Source: Verrucomicrobiota bacterium
GTDB lineage: Bacteria > Verrucomicrobiota > Verrucomicrobiia > Limisphaerales > UBA9464
Assembly (NCBI GenBank): GCA_017309115.1
Contig: JAFLEF010000012.1
Span: 62,001 to 126,000 of the forward strand
Direction of reading: 5' to 3'
DNA: 64,000 nucleotides
The first letter of the stretch is position 1. Each line of letters opens with the position of its first letter. The notes under the pieces are model-generated. The model did not search any database and was not told where the DNA came from. It worked only from the letters and a program-made list of their open reading frames with translations. Positions 12,301-55,192 of this stretch are shown here, piece after piece. Position numbers and translations under genes: made by a program.

Positions 12301-15300
12301 CCCGTGGCATCCGTGGAGGCAAAGCCCAGATTACCGACGGACACCTGTGCGCCTTCCACCGGCGTCACCTGATCCACACGAACGAACCGACCCTCAATGA
12401 TTCCCGTGCCTCCGAGGCGCAGGGTGATTGGCACCGACTGCTCCGCGCCAACCGTGACACCGCCACGCGCCGAGACCCGCGTGGAGGATTCGGTGTACTG
12501 GGCGCAGACCGCATAACGCCCCTCCCACAAATTGCTGAACGTGACCCGGCCATTCGCATCGGCGAACGCCGTTAAGCGGCCTTCACGCGGATAGGTTCCC
12601 TGCTCCAGATCCACCTGAGCGCCCGCCGCTGGCAAACCGTTGCCTCGGAGTACGGTCACCTCCACGACGGAATCCTTGGTGAGCAACCGGATGTCCACCT
12701 GATTGGTCTGGCCCGCCGTAACGGTCGCATACGCTTCGCCGCGCAGTCCCGAAACCGCGTCAATTGCCTCCGCGCGATACGTCCGGGCTGGCACCGCTAT
12801 CTGCGTGTCAAAGAATCCATTCGTCCCGGTACGAATCTCGTAGTCGTCGGAGAAATTGATCTTTACCCGGATGCCTTCGCCCGCAGGAAGTCCGTTCGGC
12901 AGCAACACCCGACCGACCAAGCGGCCGTTGAAGTCACGGATGGACGGGAACTGGAGTTGGAGTCCAATCACGTTGGGATCAATCTCCGTAGTGACGCCTC
13001 CCTCAGAAATTACCGTGGGATAGAAGGGCGACGCGGCCTGAACGGTCCAGGGTCCCACCAACAACTGACCAGGGAACACAAACTCACCCGTCGCCGGATC
13101 CGTGTCGCGTTCGCCGCGAATGGTGATCTTCGGCGCGCCATCAATCGCCGGCCCGAGACCGGTCAGGCGCACCCGAGCCCCAATGGGCACTCCCTGGTGA
13201 TTGACCACCCGTCCTGAAACCGAGCCTTCCCGCAGCATGCGGATGTTGGCCTGCACCGACTGGCCATCGAATTGCAGTCGGGTGGTCGTGAAGCCCCAGG
13301 TGATCGGTCGGAAGTTGCGTTGCTCCCCCGTAATCAGCGGATCCTCCGCGCCCACGAACACCCGGATGGCCTCCTCGAAGGCCGCGAGGATTTCGTCTTC
13401 ATTGCCGGAACGAATCTGCTCGTTGAGTTGGCTGACGTTGAGCGTCGGGGAGGTCGCGTTGGCCGGCGCGCTGAGCGTGTAGTTGCCCAAATTCAGGTTT
13501 TCGAAGGAGTAATTCCCCTGCCCATCGGCGTCGGTCCAAAAGAATCCCTCGCCCATGGGAATGGCCACCCGGATGCCTCCTATGCCCGCGCCGTTCAGAT
13601 CGGTAACCCGGCCAAAGATGCGTCCCGCCGCCCGCAGTTTCACCACGACGTAATTGTTCGCCCCCGCCACCACATTCACGATGGAGGAACCCAAGCGGGG
13701 AAAGTCGATGCCCGCCTCCGGATTTCGTTCCACGCCGGCGCTGATGGTTCGTCGTCCGACCGGAACACCACTTAGCGAGAACAATCCATCGGCATCGGTT
13801 CGAACCAGGGTGAGACCGCCCGCCACCAGGGCATTGGCCGCCGGACGACCGTCTTCAAATTGCACTCGCCCCAGCAGTTCAGTCGTCGCCTCCAGTGACA
13901 GATTGGCCACCGACAGCGCACCCGCGGCCACCGTAAAGTCCAACCGGGTTCCCTTGCGCTGTCCGTCAAAAGAAATCGCGACCACATCGAATCGCTGCGC
14001 TGGAAGATTGTCCGCCCGCCAATTGCCTTCGGCATCCGCCTCCACAATCCGCACCACATTCTTCACCTGCGATCCCGACACTTCGCCGATAAAAATCCGC
14101 GCGCCAGCATGCGGGGTCTGATTGTCCGCCTCGAATACCGTTCCCTGCAAGCTGCCCACCGGCGTCTCCGTGTTCGGCAGTTCAATGGTCACCGCGCTCA
14201 CCTGCCCCGGGGTATCCAGAAGACCCGCAATGGTCCGAGTCCGACGATCCGACGTCGCCACTTCAATCGTGTAGACGCCCAGTGGAACGCCATAGAACGC
14301 GAATCGACCCTGCGCATCGGCAAAGATTCCCCGACCGAGTTCCCGCGACGCCGAATCCGGGAAGAGGTTAACTGCCGGACGCGGCACTGGCGTCACACCG
14401 TCGGCCGCCACCACTTGACCCACCACAGTCGCCCGGCCCCGGAACCGCAGCGCCATTGGAACGGTCTGACCCTCCCGCGGTCCGCCCATCGTCACCGTGT
14501 CCCGAATCAAGGCCCGATCGAGTCCCTCGACCTTGGCGATGGCTTCCGGAATCGACGCCGTCCCCAGAATGCTCAGCAACGAATCGCGACTCGCGGACGC
14601 CGTTGCCAGCTGCAGGATCCGCTCCCGCTCAACCTCTCCTTCCGCGGTGTTCTCGGCAATCAACGTCAACGCCTCTTCCGACAAGCCGCTCGTGTCCGTG
14701 GCCGACACCGAGTACGGAATTCCCGCCATTACAAAGTCGAAATCAAAGTTGCCACCGGCGTCGGTGAAAACCTGACTGACCCGCCGGGTCCAGTTTTCGC
14801 ACTCGTCCCGGGACCAATTCCGATCGTACATCGTAAGCGTCACGGGAATTCCTACCGCCGGCGAACCATCCCCCTTGAGCGCCCGCCCGCGAATCGCGAC
14901 ACCCTGCTTGAACGGTACCTCGGTGCCAGGCTCGACCGACCGGATCAGCCGGGGCTCGGCGGTCAACAGGTTCCCGCGGGCATCCGCCACGCCGCTCAAC
15001 GAAAGTTTGCGCGGGATAATCGCACTGATGCCCTTGCGCAGATTGAGATATGCGACGCGTCCACCCGGCTGCACCTGCACGGAGTTCGCCCCGTTGTCAC
15101 CTTCGACTTGGTAGGACTCCGGATCGCCGGCCGCTTCCTGGGTCATGGGCTTGCTAAACACCACTGCCACTACCGTGCCGTAATTAAAGTAGTCCTCGGG
15201 GCCGATGCACGGATTGCTGCCCCGACCCGCCTGCACCTTTAGGTCTTGTTCCACAGCGACCAGCGTGGGCGGCAGTTCCCGTATTGCGGTGACAGTGGCT

Positions 15301-17646: not shown

Positions 17647-17653
17647 CTTCCTT
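17647..17653 (-). promoter_or_regulatory. Ribosome binding site overlapping the upstream stop codon
   Basis: On the minus strand the sequence reads TAAGGAAGAAATATG: the TAA stop of the RHS gene, an AAGGAAG Shine-Dalgarno overlapping it, a four-base spacer, then the ATG of the giant adhesin. This fixes the adhesin start and points to translational coupling, with the same ribosomes terminating and reinitiating. It is one of the few strong Shine-Dalgarno sequences in the window. Confidence 0.85.
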
Positions 17654-20600
17654 ATGGCGACGTCGAGGGAGGTGGACTCGATCTTGCCGAAAACACCCTT
17701 GAGACTCCGCTGACAAAAGTCCTGTTCCCCGATGAATCAGGAGCAGTCCAATGTCCGATTCGAAAGCCACCAGTATCGGTTACTGCTATGAAGTCTGAAG
17801 GTGCATGAATTGCGTGGGCCTTCAGCTTGTTCGCAAGATTCTGAGCTGCGCCCGTGACGCTTGCGCCTGTTTGACACGAGATAAGCCGAATGGGCTGTCT
17901 TCCATTCCATCCACTCTTTCGGATCAACAAGGCCAACGAACGATGACTAATTTTAACCCACTTCCCCTCATGTTTGATATCGAACGAATTCGGAGATCCG
18001 TGACTAAACACGTCAAACACCCCAGGTCTCTGAGCGACCCGCTGCACCGCCAAGTGAGTAGAGATATCGTACTGCCCCAACATCACAGCCCTGCCAGGGG
18101 ATTCACGAGTCACCCAAAATGGGGCCGCACCCAAGCTCGCATCCGCAGCGCGCTCTTCCATCTTCCTCAACTTCTCTTTGACTTGGACAGTAGGTCCGGA
18201 ACTTCGCCCATGCTTGGCCCTCAACTCCGTCAACCGACGTTTAGTTGCGCCCGCTACCCAATCCGCCTTTCCATTCTGTAATTGCCCTCTTGCCGCTAGG
18301 ACACTCCAGTGCCTCTCATAACCCGTAGCGATCTCGCTGGTGTGCCGGAATCCGGAAGCGCTGCCCACATTCTTTGGCTTCCAATGGTCTTCATAACCCA
18401 CCGCAATTTCTCCTCCCTGCCGAGAACTGCTTCTAGCCGGCCCCCAATGATGGTCATAGTTACTATCCACGTATCCTCCACGACCACTATACCCCCGCTG
18501 GTTTTTAAGACCCGACGGATCCCGATTTACAGTCGGGCTGTTTCCGAAACCTGCATATAGATTAACACTGTCTTCGTATCCCATCGGATCCGGTTCCAAA
18601 AACATACCCGCAAACGGATCATAGAAACGCGCCCTCAAATAGAACAACCCGCACTCATAATCAAAGTACTGCCCATGGAAAAGAAGTGGAGATCCAACCA
18701 AGCTTCGAGACACGGATCCCACATCGGTACTTGGAACAGGATCGGCGACATAGGCAGGTCCTTGCGACTCACCAAAGTCTAAAGTCACGCTCTCCTCTTT
18801 TACAATGTTCCCCCAATCGTCCTGAAGCCGATTCCCTCGCAACGTCAAAACCACTAAACCCGAAAGTGGCTTCTCTGGGTTAAAGACGATTACCGAGTTG
18901 GCCTCGAACCCGGGAACGCGTTCAGGAAACTCGGTAAAGCCTGCCGGTCCCGTTACAAAGTCTCCGAACTCTGGTCGCAACCTCACTATGCCCGACTGTC
19001 CTTCAACCGCCGGAAACAGAGCATAAACTGGCTCCGACAGCTCAATCAGAATCCGTCCATCACCCGCTACAATCACTCGTTTAACCATCGGAGACTTATC
19101 ATCCCGCGGCTCAATGACAGGCTGGCCGAAGGGATCATACCAAACACGCTCCCGAACCTCACCCTCCTGATCAGCCACTGCAATTATCGAAAACTGATCG
19201 TCGAACAAATAGTAGTGACGCTGCAGATTCCCATCGGCGTCAATCAAGTCAGCCGCATAGGGAACGTCAGCCTCCAAATAGAAATAGCGGGCCACCACCC
19301 TGCTTTCCTCCCCGACGACGCTAAACTCCTCCAAAAGACGAGACTCGTCATCGTACACAAAGTGTCGGCGCTCAATCTCTACCCCTCCGACAAGAACTCG
19401 CCGACCATACCGGAGACCGCTGGGTTGGAAAAAGTTCTCGATTACAACTCCATCAGCACGCTCAATTCTCACCAGATTACCCAAGGCATTGTGCGTCAAT
19501 GTCGCCTCAACCGAGCGAGGAACCTCATCCTGAGCGATTCGAACCATCAACTCCGCACCGGTAACTCTGCCGAGTGAATCAGGCGCACTCCTTGTCCGCG
19601 AGTTCACCACTGATGGCAAAAGAAATTCGTCGTGGGACGACCAATTCTCCGCAAAACGGGGAACACTTCCACCGGCCGCCGATACCGGCGCTGAGATCAA
19701 AAAGTCTAGTCCTGCAGTATCATAATTGTAGTCGCGCTCGTAAGCGGGTCGAGTTACTCTAGGAACATTCTCTACAGGCACTCCTCCAACTTGCGAATGG
19801 GTTAACCGTTCGCCCGAGTCAAAGCGAAAACTGTCGCTTCTTCCGGCCCGGTGGACGAACTGTCGAATCTCCACATTGTCCGCAAAATCATACTGGTAAT
19901 TCATTTCGGCCTGAACTGCTCCACCTTCAATTTTGGAGTAACGCGAACCGAGAAGCCTTCCACGCAGGTCATACTGATTGTCGATCTGCAGAACCTTTCC
20001 TAGGCGAATGCGTTTTGGCTGCTTGTCCCCCTGCCATGCCAAAACACGGACCACTTCCCCCCCCTTATCACTGACTCCAACAATCCGTCCGGCGCCATCA
20101 CGCTCCTCCACCACTGCGTGACCAGACGGATAAACCACATTCGTCCGGGCAAAGTCCGCTCGGTAAGCGTACTTGACCTCGAAATCTGAACCGTTTTCTT
20201 TGAGCCGTACCCCCAGAAGAGGACCTGCCCGATCAAATGTGTACTCGGCGCGACCGTTAGCGCCAGAATCCCCCGTATAGACCTGCACCCGCGGCCGGCT
20301 CAAGGCATCATACTCTATAATATTTCGATAGATCGTTGATCCAAAACTCGCGATTGACTCGGTTGGTCGCTGTTGAAGATCATAGGTGTATTGAATCGCC
20401 CCACCAGGCAAGATTACTTCTTTAGGTTGATTACGCGGATCGAAATTTCCATAAGTGATAACTTGCCCATTTCTCAAACTACGCCGGATCAGTCGGAACT
20501 GGCCGTCATAAGCAAACTCGAATCCCATATTGGGGTCGCCCGAGAACGAAGGATGACGCTGAGAATCGTGTTTGAAGCGAAAATCCATACCGTCCGCTCG

Positions 20601-23600
20601 TAATCTACGGTTCAGTTCCCCTAGGGCCGAATGCTCCAACTTGGTGGCATTTCCTCGGCCATTGACTAGTTCCAACTCGTAACCATCAGATCGGGATCGG
20701 AAAGTTCCAATAGCTCCCAGTCGATCCTTCGCGCTTTCGTGATGATCGAGCGCATCATAAGTGAAGAGATCCTCGTACACCGCCCCTAGTTCCTCTCGGC
20801 GGACTCGCTCCACGTTCCCATTTGAATCACTCGTAATTATAGTATTGATGGTCGAATCTGTTCCTCCCGTGGAGAAACCCGAGGCCGCCCATCGTTCAGT
20901 GACGGTCTGGTATGGTTCTTCAATAATCTTTTCCAATGGTCGATGGGTAATGCTCTCAACGCGTGAAACAGTATCTCCGAATATCGTGCTCCTGATCACG
21001 CGGCCAATTGCATCAATAGCATCAATACTTTGTTCCTCTACCACCCCATATTTGGGATCAGATACGCGATGTGACTTTAGTTGTCCCTCTGGATAGTAAC
21101 TACGGGTCGTCTCGTAAACAGCTGCCCCAGTAAATGTCTTGAGCGTTTTTGGACGATCCATTCCATCGTAATCGATAGAAGTAACCACTTCCCCTCCCTT
21201 CTCCACCTCCACAACATTGCCATGACGATCCATTTTATAGCTTTCAGAGTAGGAATCTAACGTCATTTTCGAAAGGAAGCCCAACGCATTATACTCGAAG
21301 GTCTGAATTGTTCCGCCCGGATGCGTGATCGCCTTTATTCTCGAACTCGCATCTGGAGTATACCGGTATTCCAAACTCGCCGTTTCGCCGTTTACTTCCA
21401 CTCCCTCAACTCGTCGACGGGTTACAAAGCCCTTAACATCCATTTCCAACTCAGTCTTTTTCTGTGTTCCGTCACCGAAAACTTCAGCCTCTAGAATAAC
21501 CCTTCCTTGCTCGTCATATGCCATCTTCTGAATTCCAATCCCGCGAACCACCTCCACTTGTTGGATGTTTTTACTGTACTTGTAGTCAATAGCAGCACCT
21601 CGGGGAGGCACTATTCGGCTGGGCAAACCATGCCTTGAAGCGATGTCTCCACCGTATTCGAAAATCGTCGTGGATTGTCCCCTCGATGCGGATCTTATGA
21701 ATCCAGTGGCAGCGGAAAACTCCGAAGACGTTTCGACGCCATCGTAGTCCAAATGCGAGACTAACTGGCCGTTTTTGTTGTATTCAAATCGCTCCACTCC
21801 CGCCTCACCGTGTTCGATTGATTCAATGTGACGTCCATCCGAGGAAACTGTATATCGAATCGTAAATCCATTGGCGTTTCGGTGCGCACCCGACGAAAGG
21901 TTGTACCGAGAATCATAGCTGTACGTTTCAGTGTAGCCTTCGCCTCCTCTTGGCCCCGCATCCACCTTTAATTGAATCAGGTTGGCCCTAGAGCGAAACA
22001 CCGGATGGTTTGTGTCATAGGTCAAGTAATGAATCCTACCCTCAGGATACTTGGTAAGGACCACGAGGCCATTTGGATCGTACTCATGGACCATTTCCAC
22101 TGTTGCGGAATTGACGCCTGAAATGGTGGTCACCTTGGGGTGCCCGAATTTATCAAGAACGATTTCAGTTCTTCGACCGCCAGCTTCGCTGGCCGTTGTT
22201 TTTTGATTCTCTAGTTTCTCCGCTGAGTTATCGGCAGGCACGACGATATCAGTACTTAACCCGCTTCCCACGCCGGCGGTCGCTACTGGTACACCCTTCG
22301 TCCCGGGAACTGTAGCCGCGGCCATGAGTGGAACTTTACCCGCGCCAACGGCAACTCCCACAATGCGACATTTTTCGTAGACATAGTGAGTTTGGTTTCG
22401 ACCAGCGAACCCACCATTCTCACCGTCGACTTCGATACCTTCCCGCCGCACCAGTAAACCATCATTGGAATAGAAATAGAGAACATCCCTTTGGGTGTGA
22501 TCGCGCAGACGACAGATTTTTCCTATCAGGTAAGCATTATCGCTCTTCTCATCGAGGCCCGCCACAAACTCAGGGTCTGAACCACGACGATAGTACCCAA
22601 ATCTAACGTATCGCTCGTCTGTAACCGACCGATCATCGATACGACGAAGCCACCCGCTTCGTTCGTACTCCAACTCATGGCGGTTAGCCGGGTATCGATC
22701 CAAAATCGTTTCGAGTCGCCCGTTAGCCGCGTAACGATAACGCACCCCTCCTGGAGTCAGACGCTCATACTTCCCATCCTTGAATCGAACGAGTAAATCA
22801 AACACTCCAGGCTCAGGGAGATAATAGTCTAAAACCAAATTTTCATATTCAAATTGCTCCACTAATGGATCGGATGAGTACTCCAGCGGAATCGATTCAC
22901 TGACCCATCGAAACAGGACAATTCGACCTTCGCCTGTATGGAAGAGAAGATCCTTACTACTGCCAACTACACTATCAATGAGCTGCCCCCGGGCAATCAA
23001 AGGCATTTTGAAACCTTCAGGGAAAAGCTGCGGTTGGAGCTCGGTTACGCGTTGGTTGTAATTGAAATCCCAACCGAGTCCAAATGGACCATCATAGGTA
23101 TCTTGACCGCCAATCGTTCGCTCAATTTTGATCGGCATGCGGGGACTCGGTAGAGTGAAATCTGTAGCCTCTGTTCGAAATTCGCCGCTGTGGGCACTTA
23201 TTGATCCGTAGGTGCCATCTAGTCGCTCATCTCCGCCAGGTGGCGGTGGGTTGGGCCCCATAATATACGAGACATCCAAGGTGGCCGCCGAACTATACGC
23301 TCGCGGACGAATCACATTCCGACTGGTGTCCACCTCCGCGGCGAACTTACGGATCGGCACATTCGCCAACTCGTTGGGTTCGATAAAGGCCCGCATCGAA
23401 GCCCCACTCCAGAGAACCTCGCGGTCGGCAATGCTCCGCAGGTCCATTAACTCGTCGGTCGACAGGGATTCGTAGACGACCGCGAATGGCCGGGAGAGAT
23501 ACCGATTGAAGAGCGGATTCGCGGGATCGTCGCTCAATCGATAGGCGGTCAGCGACCGTACGGGTGCGTCACATCCGGGCCGCGGCTTCATTCCCAATAC

Positions 23601-26600
23601 TTCCAGGGTCAATTCCTCGACGGCTCGCACCGGCGGAAAACCCGCCCCCTTGTTCGGCAGAGGCCAACCCGCATAGGAAAGAGCCTCCAAGCCCAAACGG
23701 ATTTGCGGACCCGCCCCCCCGGGGGCTTCGACCACAACGTAGTAGTGAAGTGACGGTTTCGGCGGGGTGAGATCAGACTCGTGGCCAAGGTGATCACCCC
23801 GAACGCGGGCCGGTACCAATGCAAACGCCGACCGCGACTGATCCATTAACTCCTGAACCTCGGCGTCCGTCTCGGGAAGAAACCGGGGATCCACCACTTC
23901 TTTGGCGTCGGGGAAGTTAACGAAGGAAAACACCGGTGCGGATTGCACCACTTCATTGCGGGAACCTTCCGCCACCGCCCGAACCCCGTAGTCCGAGGTC
24001 GCCACACTGCGCATACGGCCACCGCCGTTGGGAATGAAGCCCACCACGGCCGGATGCAATTGGGCTGGGTCTGTCGGGGGATCGGTCGCAAGGAATCGGG
24101 GTTCCAACAGCACCACGTGACTCACCGTGGTAACTTCCAATCGCCCGTCCTTGAGCATCTGCACCGAGCGAATTCCGCCTCCGGCGACCTCCTCTGGAAA
24201 GGTAACCTCTCCAATACGCTTCGGACTCTCCGGAAAGGTGATGTCGAGCGCCACTAGTTGATGTTCACCATTTCTGTTGGGAGACAAAGACACCAAGGCG
24301 ACCACCGGCGTCTTGAGTGCACCATCAACTTCAATGGTGAGGCCATCAATGACCGTGACCCGGCCAGGATAGTCCCGGAAATCGAAGTTTACCGAACCGT
24401 TGCCCGCATCAACCTCAAAGCCATTAAAACTGACGGTCCGATATTGGGGACGTATTTCAGTGGTCGTGGGTGTGCCATCCCGGGACAGCACCAGACCTCG
24501 ACTCAATGTTACCCCCAACGTCCCGCCCGTGAGGGAAAAATCCAGCACCTTTTGGGTGGTACCCGCGATGACGTAACTTTGCTTCTTACCGTAGAACTCG
24601 GGCGGACGTCGTTGCGGCAGCGGCAGGACATCACCCGGATCCACATAATCACCGTCCCCATTCGCATCTTTCCCCGGTTTGCCCGCAGCGGGGAACGTAT
24701 CGGCCTGAGCCACGGTGGCATGACGGCCGATGAGGTGTTCCTGCAGATCCACGACCACCAATTGATGAAGGTCAGCGCCGAATTCCTGGAAGATAAGATT
24801 CGGAGCATTCCACCGCACCTTGTTCACCGCCGACGCCGCCCGATAACTCACGATAGGGGAAGCAATCTCAACGGGATTGGAGGGGTCCGACATGTCAAAT
24901 ACTCGGAGGTATTGCCCCCGGACGATCACACTGTCTAAGTCGTCAATAACCGTGTCCAAGTCCCCGCCAACAACGGCCACCAGATCGTTGGTTCGGGTTT
25001 CCTCGTGAAGAGCCCGTTTGTAACTGTAGTTGGGGATCACCACCAAATCTCGGGGCACCCCCACCACCCGGGCACTCCCAAGTAGAATCGGGTTCTCCGG
25101 ATTGGAAATATCAAACGTCCGGAGCATCGGCGTGGGCGCATTGTCGATCACGTAGAGTCGGGCGCCCCAGATCGCCGCGCCCGTGCCGTTGACGACTCCG
25201 GGCAAGTTATAGCGACCCACCGGAGTGGTCCGGAAATTCACCGAGAACGAGTCGGCCTCCACAGAACTGGGCCGCTGATCCAGAGGATTGCCATTCAGAT
25301 CCATCACCGACTCTCCGGTCAGGGTCAGGGTGTAGCTTTCGTCAGGCAATAATCCGCCGTACTGAATCGTTAGGGTCGTCTGATCGGGACTAAGACGAAC
25401 CGCGGGAATCGCGGGGGCGGTCGACACCACTGACCCACTTAACAGAATGCCCGCCGTGTTGGTTTCCACGATCCGATCAATCGGTTCATTGAACACCACA
25501 GTGATTTCGCCAGTGTCGGTGACAAATCCGTCCTCGTCGGGAGATGTCGACACCACACTCGGCCCTTTCGTCTCGGTCGGATCCGACGGTGGGATTGGGC
25601 CTTCCACTCGATCCGGCGCCCCAATGAAGCTGATGGGGTAAGGAACCCGGGGCAGATAGACGCCGCTGGAAGACCGGGCCGAGACCTGAAGAACGACCCC
25701 TCGAACCAACTCGGGCGCCTGCAATTGCCCGGTCCAGCGGGTTCGATTGCCGTCCAATGGCGTCGATTCCGCGTTAACAATTTGGACGACGCTCAGAGGT
25801 TGGTTAGTCGGAAAAACCTTGGCGACAAAGACGTTAATTTCCGGGTCGCCTTGGAATCCCTGGGACGCGTTGACTTGCAAATCGACGGTCTGGCCTGCCG
25901 CCGGATAAACCGGACTGTGGGCGATATTAATTTGGGGCGAGGACTGCAGCGGGATGGGATCACGGAAGATGAAGTTCTTAAACGCTACGCCGGCAATACT
26001 GAGATCCGTGAGGGCGAAGAGAGTTTCGCTCAGTTTCTCCGAGTACCGGGGATGTGTGGCCATCACGAGATAGAAATCATCCGGCTTGAGCTGCAAGAGT
26101 GGAGTAGTCGGGGCTACGAGGAGGAAACTGCCATCGCGTCCAGAGGTCGCGTAAACCATCCCGGGGCGAACACGTCCTGGAACGGCGGGAGTGCCAATAT
26201 TCTGCAGTGTGATAAAGGCACCGCCCAAGGCCCGACCCAACAGCAAATCCGTCAACTCAGTGGTCAACTGTTCAGCCTGACTCAACCCCGAGTTCAACTG
26301 GTCGAGGGGTGAAAATGCCTTGCCCAACTGACTGTACGAGAATCCTCCGAGAAGGGGATTCTCAATCGCCAGTGGATTCTGAACTTTGGTGACCTCCAAT
26401 GACGTTAATGCTTGGCCCTTGACCACAATTGGATGTCCCCCCACTAGCAGAGGCATCAGGACATAGCGAAACACCGTGTTGGCAATGCCTGCTTGGGGTA
26501 TCAGGCCAATCACGGAGTTAACCGTCCCATAAAACAACTGCTCGCCATCCTTGAGAGGTTTGACGTCCTGACGCGCCACTTTGCCCAAAGGCGCGGGGGC

Positions 26601-29600
26601 CGGGGTTTCACTCGTGGTGAATTTCAATTGATCCAGGACCTCGAAGGCTTTCACGCCTTCGGTATCCGTAACCCGTACCAACGCCACCGCCGCATCGGCC
26701 GGATTCTCTGTCTCCGGATAGCCCGCCGCCAAAAGATTGACGGTGAAGCTGACCTTAATGGGCCCATTCATCGTCGCTCCATCCGTCTCCAAAATCATCG
26801 GCCTCGCGAGCGAGCGCGCTGCTTCCGGCTCGGTGTTGCCCAAAGCCTCCTGAACTTCAGCCGCGGTCGGAACTTTCAGCCGAAGCTTGGTCCGGCTCTG
26901 AATAACGGACGGCTCGATTTGAATTTTGACCGGCCCGCCATCCGACTGCGCTTCGAGAATCCCGCCCTGCGGATACAGACCCACGAAGCCGTCGTCGAAT
27001 TCCTGACGACTCACCGGCACGTACACGCGGGTGCCGTTCAAATTCACAAACGTGGCGCTGACGAAGTCCTCCTCAGTGCCGCTGATCAGACTGCTGAAAC
27101 TGCCGTCCACTTTGCTCAACACCGTCACGGTTTCGCCAGTGCTCTCGTTGACCAAAATCACCGGCACTTCGGGATCGGCGACCCCAGGCTGACCGTGCAC
27201 CACGATTGAGAAGGCGTCGGAACCCGGTTGATACGCCGGAATGTTCGCCAGAATCTCGGGCGGCACGTTCGTCGCGCCAGGTTCGTAAATGATGAGCTGG
27301 GCCGTCGCGATCCGCGTGCTGGCGGGAACCGTGGTGAATGAGAATTCCCGAGTGCCTTCCAGCGGAAGTCCCGACGGATCGGCAATCGTGGGATCCAGCA
27401 CCACCCGGTAAACCGTGTTCGCGTCCAGATCCGTAGCCGGACTCAACGTCGCAATCCGATTGGCCAGGTTCAGGGAAAGGGACGTCGGTACAACCTGGTT
27501 GTCCGGTCGGACCAACCGGATGGCGTTGACCACAGTTCCCGGATTCACCGCTTCGTTAAACTCAATCACCACGCTGCCCACCCGCGGCACGCGCGTGGCG
27601 CCCGCCGCCGGCGTGATGCGCGCCACGGCCGGCCCGCGTGGCGTGGTGGTCAGGTCCTGCTGCACCGCCGTCGCCGGATCCACCACCGTGATTCCATTGA
27701 GTCCCGTGTCTCCCGTGCGCGGATCAGTCACCTCCAATTGCTGCGCTCCCGCCGGACCGGTCAGCTGGAAACGCCCATCCCGATCGGTCAACGCCAGCCA
27801 GGGCAACCCCAGCAGCCGAACAGGCATGAGAGCCTGAACCGCGCCCTGACCGTTGCGAGCCACGCCCGAAATCAAGGCCTGCGCTGCGGGAACCTGGATC
27901 AGTACAAACTGCCCCGAACCCCGCAGCCCGGGTAGCCGTTCACCGCTCTCCGGTTCCAAACTGGTCAGCGCGCCCTGGGCATCACTCCGCAGACGTTCCA
28001 CCGGTTGCAACCCATAGTACCCCGTCTCACTCAGCACCCGGGCCAGCACCAAGTGGCTGTTGGTCGGCGCTCCCTGAATCTGCGTGGCCAGACTGCGCGT
28101 TACCGTGGATCCGTCCAAGGTGAGTTCAAAGGCCGCGAACACGGTGTGACCCGGACTCATCAGCGGCTGGAAAATCGAGCCATCCAGACGCCACAACCGC
28201 ATCGGGCTCGGCGCGGCCAAGCGTCCGCTACCCGCGAGAATCCGCACCCCACTCGTCCCAATCTGGCCGCCCGCAATTTCAATGACCTGACCGTCGAACG
28301 GCTGGGTCGGCAGCACGTCCACCTTCACCGACGCGGAATCCAGTTGGTCAGTTCCGAACAGTAACTGCGGCCGAACGGCGAACTGTGCCTGAAGCGTCGT
28401 GGGATCCTGGTCGCCCGGACGTTGATACCCCACAATAAAATGCTCGTACTGGGGCGTTAGTCGAAGGCTGCCATCGCGCAACACGTACGTCTCCGTCACT
28501 TCTCCCCGCAGCAGATAGCCGCTGGGCAGCGGCGACGCAGCGTGACGAATCTCCAGTTGCGCCGTGCCGGTCACCGCTTCCGGATCTTCGCTCGCCGGAC
28601 TCGCCGACGGCACCACCGCTCCAGTCGCCGTCAAATCAGTTACCGTTGGGGTCACGGGATTGCTACCAGCCAACGGCTGATTCACAACCGCCGGGGGTGG
28701 CGCCAGCGTTCCCGCATCCGCCACCACCAGCGCGTAGGCGCCAACGCCAGGCACCTCGACAGGAAGCGCGTTGGTGCCCTGCCCCGGCCGCACTTGCACC
28801 ACCTCCCAACGCCAACCCGCCTCGTTCCACTTCACCAAGGCAGCAGTTTCCGAAGTGCGAATTGGTCCCGCCGGTCGAAGGGATCCGGTCAACACGCCCG
28901 ACAGCGGTTCCGAACTCTCCAGCCAAAAGGCACTCAGCGGACTCCACCCCAGAGGAAGAAAGGCGGGCAACGTCTGACCCGTCAGGGGCGTGAGAACGAC
29001 CGTCGCGCCTTGGCTAACTACGCCGGCTCCCAATTCCAGCGAGATAGTCCCCGCCGCGTTGCTCAGCGTCGTGCCGCCCAAAGGCGTCACGGCAAACGTC
29101 TGTGCCGAACGTCGTGGCAGCTGCGGATTGGGCGCCAACGCCAGTTGATTGCTGGTGAGTTCCTGACGCCGCCAGACCGGCAGGAATCCATCCGCCGCAA
29201 ACCGCAATCGATTCTCCCCCTCACCTTGGCCGAAGGCCAACACTCCCGAAGCCGAATCACTCGTCTGCTCCACCGACCCCGCCGGTCCACTCACCGTCAC
29301 CGCCACCTGCGGCAGCGGTCGCCCGGCTTCATCCAAGGTCCGCGTCAAACCCAACGCCGGCACCACGGCTCGCCGAGCCGCGTATACCTTGGTTACGAGC
29401 GCCGGTGGATCCGATCCGCTGGACCCCAGGGTTAGCGTCCGGGGCATCGTTCCCTCTCCGGACTGCAAGACTCCATCGCCGGCTTCCGCGCTCAGATCCA
29501 CAAACGACTTTGCCGGCACGCTGTCATCCTCGCCGTCAAAGAATCGAAGCCCGGTGGTCCCGCGATAGTCCTCCACTAGCAGGATCAAGGGACCCTGAAT

Positions 29601-30485
29601 CGTTCGAGCCGCCGTGTTGGTCAGCGCCACCTCCACGTTCCAGACATTCAAGGCTCGGTTGAACCGCATGGACCGATAGTACACGGCGACATCCGCCGTC
29701 ACGTCGGTAAGGGTCAGATCCGATCCCTTCAGTTGAAACGTCTTGTCCGCCGCCTGCACTCCCTCGGCTCCGAGCAAAACCAACAGCAACCCCAGCCAAA
29801 CCCACAGCCGACTCATCCAAGCTGGTCCGCGTCCAATTCCGCCCGACGGTCCCTCGGTTCCCGCCAACCCCACCGGGCGACAACGACTCCGGTTCCAGAG
29901 CACTCCTCCCCCCAGCAGCAGCAACGCCAGCGGAGCCGGCTCGGGAATCACTTGCACCGGGGAATACCACCCCTGGGAAGGAAGGACGTTGTTGTTGTTG
30001 AACAAATCGAAATGGGCCGTCAGCGGTAATCCAGCAGCACTCATTGGCAACACCACGGTCACTTCGTAGGCCTGTTGATAGGTCAAAGACGGGGTCAGAC
30101 TCGGATAGGCGATCGGCGTCCAGAGCAGATTCTGCGAAGGGATCGGAACGGTCCCGGGCGTCGACGGCAACCACACTGCACCTCCGGCGTCCACCGTGGT
30201 CAGAAGAACCGTCCAAGTATCGACTGGATTGCGGAACGTCACCGTAAACGAATCCAGAATCTCCCCCGGCACCACCTGTTCGTCGGTCGCAAATCCAAAA
30301 CGAAACTGCAAAATCGGCGCCGTCGTCCCGGTTCCCAAGTCCAGTTCCTGCGATTCGCTGGAGAGCGCCACCCCGGGCGTCGTGTTCAGTTCACCCTGGC
30401 CTGCCAGGACCCACGGTAGGAACCAGAGGAGCGAAATCCTCCAAAGTCTCCCGACAATGTGATGCAATGGATGGAACCTTCGCAT
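17652..30485 (-). CDS. RHS/YD-repeat protein with internal PEP-CTERM segment and toxin-like C-terminus (4277 aa)
   Basis: A polymorphic-toxin-like giant protein. From the ATG at 30485 (a TTG lies 9 bases upstream), residues 1-30 resemble a signal peptide and a small beta domain follows. At 180-202 comes IPEP plus a hydrophobic stretch plus NRSRC, a textbook PEP-CTERM sorting signal, then a second complete signal peptide starting at Met224. Beyond are a CarboxypepD_reg-like repeat near 375-445, SbsA-type Ig domains near 960-1060 and 1640-1750, and LVIVD-like motifs (FDISNPENP, FDMSDPSNP, LDITFPESP) near 1790-2090 with a DxNxDG calcium motif near 1945. RHS/YD repeats run from about 2440 to 3993 and end in the canonical RHS core (YLRARFYDP, NRDPSGL). 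The last ~280 residues hold three GYExHW repeats and a domain with a His4162-Gly and a Ser-Cys4204-Gln-Thr-Gly pair, suggestive of a cysteine-peptidase-like effector. The RHS part is visibly less GC-rich than the N-terminal half. The true start of the mature large protein may be Met224 (base 29816). Confidence 0.88.
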   Translation of the reverse strand: MRRFHPLHHIVGRLWRISLLWFLPWVLAGQGELNTTPGVALSSESQELDLGTGTTAPILQFRFGFATDEQVVPGEILDSFTVTFRNPVDTWTVLLTTVDAGGAVWLPSTPGTVPIPSQNLLWTPIAYPSLTPSLTYQQAYEVTVVLPMSAAGLPLTAHFDLFNNNNVLPSQGWYSPVQVIPEPAPLALLLLGGGVLWNRSRCRPVGLAGTEGPSGGIGRGPAWMSRLWVWLGLLLVLLGAEGVQAADKTFQLKGSDLTLTDVTADVAVYYRSMRFNRALNVWNVEVALTNTAARTIQGPLILLVEDYRGTTGLRFFDGEDDSVPAKSFVDLSAEAGDGVLQSGEGTMPRTLTLGSSGSDPPALVTKVYAARRAVVPALGLTRTLDEAGRPLPQVAVTVSGPAGSVEQTSDSASGVLAFGQGEGENRLRFAADGFLPVWRRQELTSNQLALAPNPQLPRRSAQTFAVTPLGGTTLSNAAGTISLELGAGVVSQGATVVLTPLTGQTLPAFLPLGWSPLSAFWLESSEPLSGVLTGSLRPAGPIRTSETAALVKWNEAGWRWEVVQVRPGQGTNALPVEVPGVGAYALVVADAGTLAPPPAVVNQPLAGSNPVTPTVTDLTATGAVVPSASPASEDPEAVTGTAQLEIRHAASPLPSGYLLRGEVTETYVLRDGSLRLTPQYEHFIVGYQRPGDQDPTTLQAQFAVRPQLLFGTDQLDSASVKVDVLPTQPFDGQVIEIAGGQIGTSGVRILAGSGRLAAPSPMRLWRLDGSIFQPLMSPGHTVFAAFELTLDGSTVTRSLATQIQGAPTNSHLVLARVLSETGYYGLQPVERLRSDAQGALTSLEPESGERLPGLRGSGQFVLIQVPAAQALISGVARNGQGAVQALMPVRLLGLPWLALTDRDGRFQLTGPAGAQQLEVTDPRTGDTGLNGITVVDPATAVQQDLTTTPRGPAVARITPAAGATRVPRVGSVVIEFNEAVNPGTVVNAIRLVRPDNQVVPTSLSLNLANRIATLSPATDLDANTVYRVVLDPTIADPSGLPLEGTREFSFTTVPASTRIATAQLIIYEPGATNVPPEILANIPAYQPGSDAFSIVVHGQPGVADPEVPVILVNESTGETVTVLSKVDGSFSSLISGTEEDFVSATFVNLNGTRVYVPVSRQEFDDGFVGLYPQGGILEAQSDGGPVKIQIEPSVIQSRTKLRLKVPTAAEVQEALGNTEPEAARSLARPMILETDGATMNGPIKVSFTVNLLAAGYPETENPADAAVALVRVTDTEGVKAFEVLDQLKFTTSETPAPAPLGKVARQDVKPLKDGEQLFYGTVNSVIGLIPQAGIANTVFRYVLMPLLVGGHPIVVKGQALTSLEVTKVQNPLAIENPLLGGFSYSQLGKAFSPLDQLNSGLSQAEQLTTELTDLLLGRALGGAFITLQNIGTPAVPGRVRPGMVYATSGRDGSFLLVAPTTPLLQLKPDDFYLVMATHPRYSEKLSETLFALTDLSIAGVAFKNFIFRDPIPLQSSPQINIAHSPVYPAAGQTVDLQVNASQGFQGDPEINVFVAKVFPTNQPLSVVQIVNAESTPLDGNRTRWTGQLQAPELVRGVVLQVSARSSSGVYLPRVPYPISFIGAPDRVEGPIPPSDPTETKGPSVVSTSPDEDGFVTDTGEITVVFNEPIDRIVETNTAGILLSGSVVSTAPAIPAVRLSPDQTTLTIQYGGLLPDESYTLTLTGESVMDLNGNPLDQRPSSVEADSFSVNFRTTPVGRYNLPGVVNGTGAAIWGARLYVIDNAPTPMLRTFDISNPENPILLGSARVVGVPRDLVVIPNYSYKRALHEETRTNDLVAVVGGDLDTVIDDLDSVIVRGQYLRVFDMSDPSNPVEIASPIVSYRAASAVNKVRWNAPNLIFQEFGADLHQLVVVDLQEHLIGRHATVAQADTFPAAGKPGKDANGDGDYVDPGDVLPLPQRRPPEFYGKKQSYVIAGTTQKVLDFSLTGGTLGVTLSRGLVLSRDGTPTTTEIRPQYRTVSFNGFEVDAGNGSVNFDFRDYPGRVTVIDGLTIEVDGALKTPVVALVSLSPNRNGEHQLVALDITFPESPKRIGEVTFPEEVAGGGIRSVQMLKDGRLEVTTVSHVVLLEPRFLATDPPTDPAQLHPAVVGFIPNGGGRMRSVATSDYGVRAVAEGSRNEVVQSAPVFSFVNFPDAKEVVDPRFLPETDAEVQELMDQSRSAFALVPARVRGDHLGHESDLTPPKPSLHYYVVVEAPGGAGPQIRLGLEALSYAGWPLPNKGAGFPPVRAVEELTLEVLGMKPRPGCDAPVRSLTAYRLSDDPANPLFNRYLSRPFAVVYESLSTDELMDLRSIADREVLWSGASMRAFIEPNELANVPIRKFAAEVDTSRNVIRPRAYSSAATLDVSYIMGPNPPPPGGDERLDGTYGSISAHSGEFRTEATDFTLPSPRMPIKIERTIGGQDTYDGPFGLGWDFNYNQRVTELQPQLFPEGFKMPLIARGQLIDSVVGSSKDLLFHTGEGRIVLFRWVSESIPLEYSSDPLVEQFEYENLVLDYYLPEPGVFDLLVRFKDGKYERLTPGGVRYRYAANGRLETILDRYPANRHELEYERSGWLRRIDDRSVTDERYVRFGYYRRGSDPEFVAGLDEKSDNAYLIGKICRLRDHTQRDVLYFYSNDGLLVRREGIEVDGENGGFAGRNQTHYVYEKCRIVGVAVGAGKVPLMAAATVPGTKGVPVATAGVGSGLSTDIVVPADNSAEKLENQKTTASEAGGRRTEIVLDKFGHPKVTTISGVNSATVEMVHEYDPNGLVVLTKYPEGRIHYLTYDTNHPVFRSRANLIQLKVDAGPRGGEGYTETYSYDSRYNLSSGAHRNANGFTIRYTVSSDGRHIESIEHGEAGVERFEYNKNGQLVSHLDYDGVETSSEFSAATGFIRSASRGQSTTIFEYGGDIASRHGLPSRIVPPRGAAIDYKYSKNIQQVEVVRGIGIQKMAYDEQGRVILEAEVFGDGTQKKTELEMDVKGFVTRRRVEGVEVNGETASLEYRYTPDASSRIKAITHPGGTIQTFEYNALGFLSKMTLDSYSESYKMDRHGNVVEVEKGGEVVTSIDYDGMDRPKTLKTFTGAAVYETTRSYYPEGQLKSHRVSDPKYGVVEEQSIDAIDAIGRVIRSTIFGDTVSRVESITHRPLEKIIEEPYQTVTERWAASGFSTGGTDSTINTIITSDSNGNVERVRREELGAVYEDLFTYDALDHHESAKDRLGAIGTFRSRSDGYELELVNGRGNATKLEHSALGELNRRLRADGMDFRFKHDSQRHPSFSGDPNMGFEFAYDGQFRLIRRSLRNGQVITYGNFDPRNQPKEVILPGGAIQYTYDLQQRPTESIASFGSTIYRNIIEYDALSRPRVQVYTGDSGANGRAEYTFDRAGPLLGVRLKENGSDFEVKYAYRADFARTNVVYPSGHAVVEERDGAGRIVGVSDKGGEVVRVLAWQGDKQPKRIRLGKVLQIDNQYDLRGRLLGSRYSKIEGGAVQAEMNYQYDFADNVEIRQFVHRAGRSDSFRFDSGERLTHSQVGGVPVENVPRVTRPAYERDYNYDTAGLDFLISAPVSAAGGSVPRFAENWSSHDEFLLPSVVNSRTRSAPDSLGRVTGAELMVRIAQDEVPRSVEATLTHNALGNLVRIERADGVVIENFFQPSGLRYGRRVLVGGVEIERRHFVYDDESRLLEEFSVVGEESRVVARYFYLEADVPYAADLIDADGNLQRHYYLFDDQFSIIAVADQEGEVRERVWYDPFGQPVIEPRDDKSPMVKRVIVAGDGRILIELSEPVYALFPAVEGQSGIVRLRPEFGDFVTGPAGFTEFPERVPGFEANSVIVFNPEKPLSGLVVLTLRGNRLQDDWGNIVKEESVTLDFGESQGPAYVADPVPSTDVGSVSRSLVGSPLLFHGQYFDYECGLFYLRARFYDPFAGMFLEPDPMGYEDSVNLYAGFGNSPTVNRDPSGLKNQRGYSGRGGYVDSNYDHHWGPARSSSRQGGEIAVGYEDHWKPKNVGSASGFRHTSEIATGYERHWSVLAARGQLQNGKADWVAGATKRRLTELRAKHGRSSGPTVQVKEKLRKMEERAADASLGAAPFWVTRESPGRAVMLGQYDISTHLAVQRVAQRPGVFDVFSHGSPNSFDIKHEGKWVKISHRSLALLIRKSGWNGRQPIRLISCQTGASVTGAAQNLANKLKAHAIHAPSDFIAVTDTGGFRIGHWTAPDSSGNRTFVSGVSRVFSARSSPPPSTSP
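18290..18506 (-). repeat. Three ~25-residue GYxxHW repeats after the RHS core
   Basis: Immediately after the RHS core the protein has SNYDHHW, then EIAVGYEDHW, then EIATGYERHW, spaced by about 25 residues. The corresponding DNA repeats are visible as CATAACC plus flanking bases near 18318, 18390 and (diverged, CATAGTT) 18454 on the plus strand. The unit is between the RHS shell and the predicted effector, so it may be a linker or a recent internal duplication. Confidence 0.7.
29751..29816 (-). other. Second, internal signal peptide with alternative ATG start
   Basis: From the ATG at 29816 the frame reads MSRLWVWLG, a long Leu/Val core, then GVQA before an Ala-Asp-Lys mature end, an ideal type I signal peptide with an A-x-A-like cleavage site. 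In the +1 frame a TGA overlaps this ATG (ATGA), the usual layout of two coupled genes. The upstream PEP-CTERM gene would end there if its frame were shifted by one base. The Shine-Dalgarno before this ATG is weak. Confidence 0.6.
29880..29948 (-). other. PEP-CTERM sorting segment inside the RHS reading frame
   Basis: Encodes IPEP, then a run of Ala/Leu/Gly membrane residues, then LWNRSRC. This is the tripartite PEP-motif, transmembrane, basic-cluster arrangement recognised by exosortase. In the family it is the extreme C-terminus of the protein. Here the frame stays open for more than 4000 further codons, so the segment is internal. Confidence 0.8.
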
Positions 30486-30522
30486 GGACAGCAATTGCTA
30501 ACGTACCATGTCGGCCGGCAAT

Positions 30523-30678: not shown

Positions 30679-33600
30679 TTAATCCAGCAATCGAGCCCGA
30701 AGGAACACCATTCCAGGAAATGCGGGTGTGCTGAACATCTCGTTGCCGGAAAAATCCTCGAACGTTCGGACGGGCTCCCAAGTGGTGCCATCGGCTAACC
30801 GCTCCAGCAGATATCGGAACCCGATGGCTCCAGTCAGGCGCCAGGACACAGTCCCGTCAGACTGGACGAGCACCGGTTCGATGCGACCCACTTCAAACTC
30901 CGGGTCGCCCTTCTGAAGGGCAAACGACGCGAAGGTGGCAATGGCAGAGGGCGCCGCTTCCGGACCGCTGGCCACCGTGTTGACCAAGGGTGAGCGACCG
31001 AAACGCCCTCCCGACGCCTGAGCCGCCTCATAACTGGACCCCGCACCTGCTTCCCATACCCGCACCTGGGCCACGAACGCCTCACTGGGCCTGATGTGGG
31101 GCAATGAGATTAGTTGAGGCTCCCAGAGTCCTGCCCAAACACCCGTCAAGAACGGACTCGGACGGCCCACGGGAAGAAGTGTCTCCGCTGACGGACCCGC
31201 ATACAATTGCGCGACGAATGCTTCGCCGGAGAGGAACGTAACGCCGTCCGCATCAGCCACACTCACCCGAAACGGAACCGGCTCATCCTTCTGGGCGGCA
31301 AACTCAATTCGACCGCCCCCAAGCCGAGTGGGCGCGGCCACTACCGGGACCGGCCAACTGAGGACCGAACTCTCCCTACTCTGAACCCGCACTTGGTAGG
31401 TGCCCAAGTCCACTTGCTGGACGGATGGAATTACCCGTGCTCGATTGGTCGCGTCGGGCAGCGCTTGGCCATTGCGAAACCATTGGTAATTCAGCGGCGG
31501 TGGCCCAGCGGCTCCGACCTCCAGCGCGAGATACTGCCCCAAGGCGACCGCCGCTCCAGTGGGCTGTCGAACAATCTCAACGACTTCGGGAAACTCCGGT
31601 TCCCACCGAATCTCCAGCACGAAGGGCCCGGAGTTGCCTTCCCCATTGCCCACAGCCAATGCGAATCGTTGCCCACTCTCCACGGGCATCCGCGATTGGG
31701 GAGACAACAATTGCAGGGCAGCCAGCGTCTCTCCTGAGAACACCGAGACCTGATTCCTGCTTCCTTCACCCTCTGGGACCACGCTGATCCGTACAAAACC
31801 CTTACCAGGCGCGGTCCATTCCCACCACAGGGTCTGGTTGAGTCCGGCTGGTTCGCCCGGTTCCCGACTGGCCTGCTGATTGGAACTTCGGATGGTGTGC
31901 GACCGTCCGGAGAGCTGAAGGCGATCGGCAAAATCATCATTCACTAATTCCGGAACCGCCACGTAATCGAACGATCCCGCGACGGGTCCCAAGGCAAAAT
32001 CGAAGTTTCCATTCGCCCCCGCGGCAATCCAATATGTGACGCCCGGCCGCGTGCGGAACGGCAGCCACGCCACCGGGTTTCCTTGGGTCACTTCCTGTCC
32101 CACCAAGAGCTTCAAGTCGGACCACGACGTCCCGGTGAACACCGCCGCCTGATTCTGATGTTCGCTCTCCAACAAGTGGAACAGGACGCCGCCGTGCTCG
32201 GGCGCCGTGAATTTCCACCACAAGGTTCCGTACCGCTGGAACGATACCAAAGCGGGCAGATTCGTTTCGCCTGATTCGGTGGATGCAAACGTCGTGGAGG
32301 AGAACAGCGGCACGGATCCTCCCGTCGGTGGCACTGCCAATTCAGTCGCGTCCAGTCTCTGATCGTTGGAGGGAGCCAGCCCTAGACGAAGTTCAAACTC
32401 ACCGGCGTTAGGATGCGGGCTGCTTACCGCCAACCGACACGCAGTCCCGGCGGGAACGTCCACGGATACCGGCTGATTGAGGTGCGCCCATTTTCCCCGG
32501 GCGATCAGAACTCCATTTACTCCCAGTTCCCACAACTCGACTTGCACCGGGTCGGCCCCGCGAATCTGCCGAATGCGGGCCGCGCCTCCCGCCGGAATGG
32601 TCCAATCAAACCAAACGGTGCCGTGGCCCAATTCAAAACCAGGGATCTCCCCTGGTTCGAGCGTGGCTCCCGCCAGGGATCCCACGGCACCGGATTGGGG
32701 AGGAACCACGGGAATGGGAACCACGGGGGACGCATCGGCAGCCTGATCGTTGGTCGGTCGAATCCAACCCATGACATCGAACAACACCCGATCCTCGGCA
32801 CTGCCCGTCGCGATGGCCCTCAGGTTAAACACGCCTGATACTGACGGAATCCAGGTGCTGACGGCCTGCGGATTGGGAGTCTGATTTGTCAGGACGCTTG
32901 AGCCCAGCCACCACGTCACCGTTTCGCTGACCCCACCCGCCGCTCGGAACGAGCGCAACTCTACCGGCACGCCCTGCTTCAATTCCGACGCCACCGGAGC
33001 GACTCCCGTCGTCTCGAAGGTGAGTTGGGCCAGGACGCCTGGGGCCTCGCCCACCACCTGCCAGAAGTACGTTGTTCCGGCGACAACCGGGACGGCCAAT
33101 TCAAAAGGATTCGTCGCCGTGCCTAGCCAGGCGGCGATGCGAGTCAGATTCGTTAGAGTGGATCCGGAGTAGGCCGACACGATCAGTGGCCCTGGAATGG
33201 GGCCTAACTTAACCCGTGCCGTGCCGGACGCCGGAGCGGTCCAACGATACCACAAGGAACCGCCCGGCACTCCCGGATCAGGTTCGCCCGCTTCCCGACC
33301 TGCCCACGACAGGCCGGACCAATCCCAGTCTGCCCGACCGATCGACGGTAAGGTCTGCGCCTGGGCAAACCGATCGTGAGCCACGGCGCCGATAATCGTG
33401 AGCGGCGCGCTGGCCCGCACCTCACCCTGCTGGTTGGTTCCCACCACTCGCCACGTCGTCATTTGTCCCAACACCGGCGTGACTTCGAACCATCGCGGAG
33501 AATCGACGGCCGACGCGAATGTCTCAAACACAGGACCACCGGCCTGCAGATGAATCGCCGGGTACTCATCCACCGGATTGAACTCGGTCACGAGAAGCCG

Positions 33601-34776
33601 GTGCGTCACATCTGCCGTCAGGTAGACGGTGGGATTCTGATTTCCCGGCTGGCTTACCTGGAACTCAGCCGGCGGATCCAACTGCAGGACCGGTCGCTGG
33701 AGCGCCAGCGTAGCCGCACCGAAAGGCTCCTCGAACGCTTGCGCCAGGCGAACGTAGTAACTAGTGCCAGCGGCGGCCGAAAATGGTTCACCGGCCGAGA
33801 TCGGCAGTGGAGTGAGCGAGGCCAAGACCCCGCCAGCAAAGACTTGGAAGGTCGCTCCCGAAGCCGTGAACTGCGCTTTTCCGGAGAACTGGGGAACCCA
33901 TTTCCACCACACCGATCGTACCGCGGGTCGCCCTGGATTGATTGGTGGTTCCTCCGACTCGGTCGAAGTAAAGAACAGATTCTCCGCAGCGCTCCAGTCC
34001 GACGCTGAAGCGGGAATGACCGTTGCCTCCGACCAGGAGTCGTTCCCGGCCACCAGCGTCCACTGGATGTTCCGGACATTGACGACCGATCTCAGGTTGG
34101 TCCGAACCCGGGCGGAAATCATGGTTGGCCCACCCCGGTCCGCCATCAGATCGAATCGCCAAGGAGCTGCCGACAGATTGGTCCGGACTTGGCCATTTAC
34201 CAGGAACGTGACATCGAGTGGATATTCGGAAGGATCCCCACTCTCGAGAGCAAACCCAGCCGTCGCCGGAGACCTCGTCGGCAAAACCGAAGACTCCGGA
34301 GCGATAAAGAGTCGACCAAACGAACCGCGGAAAGTTTGGATCGTTCCCTGAGGAGGTGGGTCCGCCAGTTCGATCGCCACCGAATACATCACACCCGCAT
34401 CCACGCGGAATCCCATCACCTGATCTCCTGATCGAATGGCGGCAGAGGTGACTTCCTGTAGCGTCTCGACAGTATCTCCCGTGTACACCGCCATGCGAAA
34501 TCCCGGCAGGTTATTGATAAACAGGGTCAGGTATCCAGAGCTGGCATACTGCACCCGGAACCATTGGGAATGGCGGGCCGGTTGGCCGGCATGGTCAGGC
34601 TCGCCGGGCTCAGCGCTGGCCAGGTTGGTGCTGATGATGGTGGTGATGCCGAACTCTTCCTGCGTGACGAGTCTAGCCGAGGCGAAGTGATCTGGCAGTG
34701 ATCCCTGGCCCGAAGCCCGAAGGCCGGCCAAGCAAACGACAAAGAAGAGCGATCCGATTAGGCGCCGCATACGCAT
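30679..34776 (-). CDS. Large secreted protein with tandem jelly-roll repeats and an Ig-like domain (1365 aa)
   Basis: Residues 1-24 are a Sec signal peptide. Six or so repeats of about 150-190 residues follow, each opening with a ND-x-F/W-x-x-A-type motif (NDSWSEA, HDRFAQA, NDQAADA, NDQRLDA, NDDFADR), continuing with an E-x-G-E or EPGEP box and a GSLWYRWTAP-like strand. This is the pattern of pre-peptidase C-terminal-like jelly rolls common in Verrucomicrobiota extracellular proteins. Near residue 1110 there is an I-set Ig-like domain (NYQWFRNGQALP, GTYQVRV). The C-terminus has the W...VFLRAR module similar to the tails of the giant adhesin and the CotH/LTD protein. No catalytic domain is recognised, so an adhesive or matrix role is inferred. 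It lies 193 bases upstream of the RHS gene on the same strand. Confidence 0.88.
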   Translation of the reverse strand: MRMRRLIGSLFFVVCLAGLRASGQGSLPDHFASARLVTQEEFGITTIISTNLASAEPGEPDHAGQPARHSQWFRVQYASSGYLTLFINNLPGFRMAVYTGDTVETLQEVTSAAIRSGDQVMGFRVDAGVMYSVAIELADPPPQGTIQTFRGSFGRLFIAPESSVLPTRSPATAGFALESGDPSEYPLDVTFLVNGQVRTNLSAAPWRFDLMADRGGPTMISARVRTNLRSVVNVRNIQWTLVAGNDSWSEATVIPASASDWSAAENLFFTSTESEEPPINPGRPAVRSVWWKWVPQFSGKAQFTASGATFQVFAGGVLASLTPLPISAGEPFSAAAGTSYYVRLAQAFEEPFGAATLALQRPVLQLDPPAEFQVSQPGNQNPTVYLTADVTHRLLVTEFNPVDEYPAIHLQAGGPVFETFASAVDSPRWFEVTPVLGQMTTWRVVGTNQQGEVRASAPLTIIGAVAHDRFAQAQTLPSIGRADWDWSGLSWAGREAGEPDPGVPGGSLWYRWTAPASGTARVKLGPIPGPLIVSAYSGSTLTNLTRIAAWLGTATNPFELAVPVVAGTTYFWQVVGEAPGVLAQLTFETTGVAPVASELKQGVPVELRSFRAAGGVSETVTWWLGSSVLTNQTPNPQAVSTWIPSVSGVFNLRAIATGSAEDRVLFDVMGWIRPTNDQAADASPVVPIPVVPPQSGAVGSLAGATLEPGEIPGFELGHGTVWFDWTIPAGGAARIRQIRGADPVQVELWELGVNGVLIARGKWAHLNQPVSVDVPAGTACRLAVSSPHPNAGEFELRLGLAPSNDQRLDATELAVPPTGGSVPLFSSTTFASTESGETNLPALVSFQRYGTLWWKFTAPEHGGVLFHLLESEHQNQAAVFTGTSWSDLKLLVGQEVTQGNPVAWLPFRTRPGVTYWIAAGANGNFDFALGPVAGSFDYVAVPELVNDDFADRLQLSGRSHTIRSSNQQASREPGEPAGLNQTLWWEWTAPGKGFVRISVVPEGEGSRNQVSVFSGETLAALQLLSPQSRMPVESGQRFALAVGNGEGNSGPFVLEIRWEPEFPEVVEIVRQPTGAAVALGQYLALEVGAAGPPPLNYQWFRNGQALPDATNRARVIPSVQQVDLGTYQVRVQSRESSVLSWPVPVVAAPTRLGGGRIEFAAQKDEPVPFRVSVADADGVTFLSGEAFVAQLYAGPSAETLLPVGRPSPFLTGVWAGLWEPQLISLPHIRPSEAFVAQVRVWEAGAGSSYEAAQASGGRFGRSPLVNTVASGPEAAPSAIATFASFALQKGDPEFEVGRIEPVLVQSDGTVSWRLTGAIGFRYLLERLADGTTWEPVRTFEDFSGNEMFSTPAFPGMVFLRARLLD

Positions 34777-55071: not shown

Positions 55072-55192
55072 TCCCAAGCCCATCCGGCGGTGAGAAAAAC
55101 CGGTGAGGACCCGGAGGGAAATGGTGAGGGCGAGCCAATTGCCTTGTCCAAATGTCACAATCCAGAAACTTTCCTCCAGTTCCCCCGCTCTT

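Follow-up and report, generated by a model that had tools for sequence, protein, structure and literature searches.

In the sections of Haft et al. (2006; PMC1569441) that deal with its placement, the PEP-CTERM tag is described as C-terminal ‘virtually without exception', and 87% of PEP-CTERM proteins have fewer than 10 residues past the domain. The same sections mention very few tags with dramatically longer tails, which ‘may represent non-functional examples', and report that atypically placed tags vary more. We analysed a tag that lies deep inside a protein, in a stretch of 64,000 nucleotides from a Verrucomicrobiota bacterium of the order Limisphaerales (assembly GCA_017309115.1, contig JAFLEF010000012.1, positions 62,001 to 126,000; hereafter the window). 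The tag is followed, in the same minus-strand frame of 4277 codons, by a basic loop, a second signal-peptide-like stretch and a giant RHS protein. The frame is a fusion of two genes that are separate neighbours in many relatives, and it probably makes one polyprotein, which exosortase would cut at the PEP motif and signal peptidase after VQA.

An internal tag and its counterparts in relatives

The tag, IPEPAPLALLLLGGGVLWNRSRCR, starts at 29948 and is recognized by TIGR02595 with 21.2 bits in the N-terminal piece and 16.6 bits in the whole protein, against a curated NCBIfam cut-off of 16. An earlier reading of the window from its letters (the sequence-only reading) had placed this tag and a second signal-like stretch within one frame, and we find the same, with no stop inside the frame. 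Twenty-one residues separate NRSRC from the Met of ATG 29816, which opens MSRLWVWLGLLLVLLGAEGVQA. The same reading saw a TGA overlapping this ATG in the +1 frame; it is present at 29815–29813. Its statement that such tags are C-terminal in every known case was too strong, given the few long-tailed tags noted in the consulted sections of PMC1569441.

We compared the tag with others of the same genome, in which TIGR02595 listed 36 matches. Among the 30 with fetched loci, 29 are followed by a stop 24–40 residues past the tag start; the tag of the window alone continues, its frame running on to 17652. The PEP motif, hydrophobic helix and basic cluster are all in place, and the exosortase family PF09721 has five matches over cut-off in this genome and is present in 12 of 12 genomes searched, which were chosen by us. 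Since the terminal position is lacking, we class the tag as a PEP-CTERM variant and not as a standard member.

We queried 321 genomes of the order with the N-terminal ~270 residues of the RHS half; 39 genomes gave hits, at 47 places, and 44 of these places were analysed. At 23 of the 44 a separate PEP-CTERM gene ends just upstream of the RHS half, and in 11 of these 23 pairs (start codons picked by rule) stop and start overlap in the four bases ATGA, the two-gene state that the sequence-only reading had proposed to look for. Tag and RHS half share one frame at five places: the window (G000), G003 and G004 of the same genus, and G183 and G096 of other families. The remaining 16 places showed no tag by the pattern used, some of them lying at contig ends. 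The two genes lie side by side or are fused at 28 of the 44 places, which suggests a joint function. A class-wide sample of 384 genomes gave 10 genomes with hits, one of them outside the order, to which the family is almost restricted.

Three protein searches added 69 related proteins (P0003–P0071), 24 of them with tag and second signal in one chain; together with G003, G004 and G096 they make up the 27 fused sequences considered below. A hidden Markov model (HMM) was trained on 16 of the 23 separate PEP genes without their tags and matched 26 of the 27 fused PEP halves with 153–200 bits, the one left over (P0010) having a record that begins just before the tag. From the genome of the window, 26 other PEP-CTERM proteins were compared with the same model, which listed 22 at no more than 2.3 bits and did not list four. 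The fused N-terminal half is therefore a homologue of the separate upstream gene.

The fused sequences show a conserved order of PEP, hydrophobic helix, basic loop, hydrophobic helix and small-x-Ala. Of the 27, 26 retain PEP, and in 25 the second helix ends in [AVGST]xA; the loop between the helices varies from 3 to 66 residues and is net positive in all 27. PEP and basic loop persist in sequences down to ~40% identity. Measured against the refuting condition of the sequence-only reading, orthologues that are always fused and have a linker of conserved sequence, the picture is mixed: some orthologues are not fused, and the loop retains its charge and position but varies in sequence and length.

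We made a quick tree from 100 rows, the 27 fused sequences among them, with the SH-like approximate likelihood-ratio test (SH-aLRT) as its only support measure. The window belongs to a clade whose 15 rows are all fused (SH-aLRT 99) and adjoins its nearest relative, P0004 (61% identical); a second all-fused clade holds eight rows (99), and P0023, P0012, P0013 and G096 stand apart. The fused label needs at least five changes on the tree, as against 24 in shuffles; three of the changes are forced by the starred branches. Gains and losses are not distinguishable on the tree, but the fusion is old in the clade of the window.

One polyprotein or another arrangement

Polyprotein processing by exosortase and signal peptidase, one of the possibilities raised by the sequence-only reading, is the best-supported account, as motifs and basic loop are retained over the 27 fused sequences. 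The first signal peptide would export the PEP half and be cut off by signal peptidase; the PEP helix would bring the chain back to the cytoplasm, where the positive loop would remain, and the second helix would then export the RHS half. Exosortase would cut at PEP and signal peptidase after VQA, and the two products, a giant RHS protein and a small PEP-CTERM protein of the surface, would be made one to one. A single basic loop would thus play two roles, as tail of the PEP-CTERM tag and as head of a signal peptide. A signal peptide begins at the cytoplasmic side with a basic head. PEP-CTERM signals are thought, in the sections of PMC1569441 and PMC12188702 on their orientation, to keep their basic end cytoplasmic as well. 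The two would therefore fit end to end on one loop. With somewhat less confidence, but still on balance, we favour extending this to a family of two-enzyme polyproteins, in which exosortase tag and signal peptide stand back to back on a shared basic loop, the chain runs out-in-out and the ratio of products is fixed.

Several observations speak against this account, in which the cuts themselves are predicted. P0013 has VAEP instead of PEP (AEP, the first Pro lost), with the rest of the hairpin retained, and strict small-x-Ala is absent from P0012 (LKA) and G003 (LQA). The fused frame of G003 (L023, G003:C89) ends ~160 residues after the RHS half begins; that assembly is fragmented and 70% complete. 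Motif retention could partly reflect inheritance, as the set includes near-copy rows (P0009/P0055 and P0007/P0008). Loops of eight of the 27 sequences, the window included, contain a Met, and the ATG of the window gives a plausible signal peptide of its own. In G096 the linker is open for 66 residues and holds a GTG with a ribosome-site-like GGAGAAG ahead of it, which fits an ordinary second start; the open linker may therefore be chance, and the locus may be two genes. On the side of the account stands an AlphaFold2 model of residues 1–485 (34 sequences), with a reservation. The model has a mean predicted local distance difference test (pLDDT) score of 84.3 and comprises a helix (6–22), a beta domain (31–180), a second helix (185–201), a low-confidence coil, a third helix (223–238) and further beta domains (247–444). 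Its predicted TM-score (pTM) is only 0.48, and the relative arrangement of these parts is therefore not fixed; the model is as expected for the hairpin topology, without being proof of it.

The same model, with two helices and a short coil between them in a chain that is one frame, would also suit a protein that is never cut, in which the helices form a permanent membrane hairpin tethering the RHS half beside the PEP domain. A mere anchor, however, would need neither the PEP motif nor the [AVGST]xA end that nearly all fused sequences keep, and exosortases are present; we regard the uncut hairpin as unlikely.

Slightly less likely again is that two proteins are made from two starts, with the open frame of the loop being incidental and translation of the RHS protein beginning at ATG 29816, in the manner of the coupled pairs. 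A plausible signal peptide with Arg at +3 begins at this ATG, and the ATGA used by 11 of the 23 separate pairs is still present in the window, where it may have been left over from the coupled two-gene state or be a coincidence, as A often follows ATG. Yet the loop lacks Met in 19 of the 27 fused sequences, P0004 among them, and lacks M, V or L in 10 of 26 (G096 lying outside this count). In G004 and G003 there is no ATG, GTG or TTG among the loop codons, and the earliest possible start falls within the second helix and would lack a basic head; in G183 the 43-residue loop is free of ATG and GTG, its one TTG lying 41 residues ahead of the helix. No obvious ribosome site precedes 29816, which says little because most starts in the window are likewise without one. 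The suggestion that both ATGs are used cannot be general, given these loops without Met or without M, V or L; in the gene of the window itself, ATG 29816 could also be used.

Decay of the tag into a non-functional remnant after fusion appears very improbable. It would agree with what the consulted sections of PMC1569441 suggest for atypically placed tags and with the first Pro lost in P0013, but not with the near-universal PEP motif and the invariably basic loop at ~40% identity. Most improbable of all is a sequencing or assembly frameshift that merged two genes in this genome only: the assembly is in 111 contigs and the +1 TGA overlaps the ATG, but the fusion recurs in G003, G004, G183, G096 and 23 other protein clusters from several sources, and its age in the clade of the window rules out an error in this assembly. 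The frameshift that the sequence-only reading had offered, joining a small PEP-CTERM gene to the RHS gene, is supported as history, the ATGA-coupled pairs being present in relatives, and not as error, since other assemblies have the fusion too.

Layout of the frame and its neighbours

The frame can be opened at its first ATG, as in Table 1, or at its first TTG, at 30494, and contains no internal stop down to 17652; the database copy (P0003) is 4277 amino acids long, the length given by the ATG. Both signal peptides were judged by eye and from the predicted helices.

Table 1. Parts of the fused frame, in window coordinates.
Feature	Position	Strand	Basis or remark
Whole frame: PEP-CTERM half, basic loop, second signal peptide and giant RHS half	17652..30485	minus	
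First signal peptide, MRRFHPLHHIVGRLWRISLLWFLPWVLAG	30399..30485	minus	By eye; predicted helix 6–22
PEP-CTERM half, predicted beta domain of ~150 residues	29949..30398	minus	HMM of 16 separate PEP genes, 169.4 bits; model strands at residues 31–180, high pLDDT
Internal PEP-CTERM tag: IPEP motif, hydrophobic helix, basic NRSRCR	29877..29948	minus	TIGR02595 above cut-off; helix 185–201
Linker	29817..29876	minus	With NRSRCR and MSR a 28-residue loop, net charge +4, predicted cytoplasmic; low-confidence coil in model
Second signal-peptide-like stretch with its own ATG, MSRLWVWLGLLLVLLGAEGVQA	29751..29816	minus	Sequence; helix 223–238; predicted signal peptidase site after VQA
Overlap of in-frame ATG and +1-frame TGA (ATGA)	29813..29816	minus	Sequence
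RHS half after predicted cut: Big_5, CarboxypepD_reg, DUF6531, RHS/YD repeats, RHS core, C-terminal stretch without match	17655..29750	minus	Pfam and NCBIfam scans

In the RHS half, TIGR03696 (Rhs_assc_core; 61.6 bits, cut-off 32.5), TIGR01643 (YD repeats; 52.8 bits, cut-off 15.8) and PF05593 (49 bits, cut-off 22) are above their cut-offs, and the CarboxypepD_reg match is below its family cut-off. The ~284 residues after the RHS core (17655–18506, minus) gave no Pfam or NCBIfam match in whole-protein scans. Variable C-terminal domains often follow the core in RHS proteins.

Among relatives of the RHS half, P0033, P0036, P0041 and P0069 carry, according to precomputed domains, a lecithin:cholesterol acyltransferase-type domain (PF02450) and no RHS repeat, so that the same N-terminal region heads other giant proteins. 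In one relative (L059/L117, G135:C555:10191-10989) the RHS half is spread over two frames that meet at 10667/10666, by a frameshift or an assembly error.

Downstream of the fused frame, a frame of 5761 amino acids (357–17642, minus) starts 9 bases past the RHS-frame stop, has a signal-peptide-like start of its own and is probably co-transcribed with the RHS frame. The frame upstream (30679–34776, minus; 1365 amino acids) has weak matches, to immunoglobulin-like families only. Farther away, a plus-strand frame of 2281 amino acids (55103–61948) contains six lamin-tail domain stretches, a CotH kinase domain and a carbohydrate-binding domain.

Comparison with known systems

PEP-CTERM is defined as a signal that ends a protein, whereas the 27 fused sequences keep the tag inside the chain, directly ahead of a second export signal. 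This set makes two questions testable. One is whether exosortase needs a free C-terminus; if the polyprotein is real, the enzyme reads its tag within a chain, without one. The other is whether membrane-hairpin polyproteins, which some viruses use, also serve bacteria for producing secreted partners in equal amounts. The fusion further connects giant RHS proteins with a PEP-CTERM family that is as yet uncharacterised. In the open-licence literature we found no combination of an internal signal peptide with a sortase-type tag.

The RHS half resembles described RHS/YD-repeat proteins in its RHS core and YD repeats, and differs from them in a long immunoglobulin-like and carboxypeptidase-regulatory-like N-terminal region and in the fused PEP-CTERM half. 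The tag shares with the exosortase (EpsH) system the PEP motif, the hydrophobic helix, the basic cluster and exosortase genes in the genome; unlike there, it lies within the chain, 4074 residues away from the C-terminus, and leads into a second export signal. In its mode the arrangement resembles FbcH of Bradyrhizobium, where one gene encodes cytochrome b and cytochrome c1, which signal peptidase separates, and other bacteria have separate genes. We claim no homology. In both cases a single bacterial frame covers two proteins that are exported or lie in the membrane, the second behind an internal signal peptide (in the window a predicted one), and relatives of the window have the same parts as separate genes (23 of 44 places separate and five fused, with homologous PEP halves). 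FbcH, however, has no sortase-type tag ahead of its internal signal peptide, whereas in the window two enzymes would act at one hairpin.

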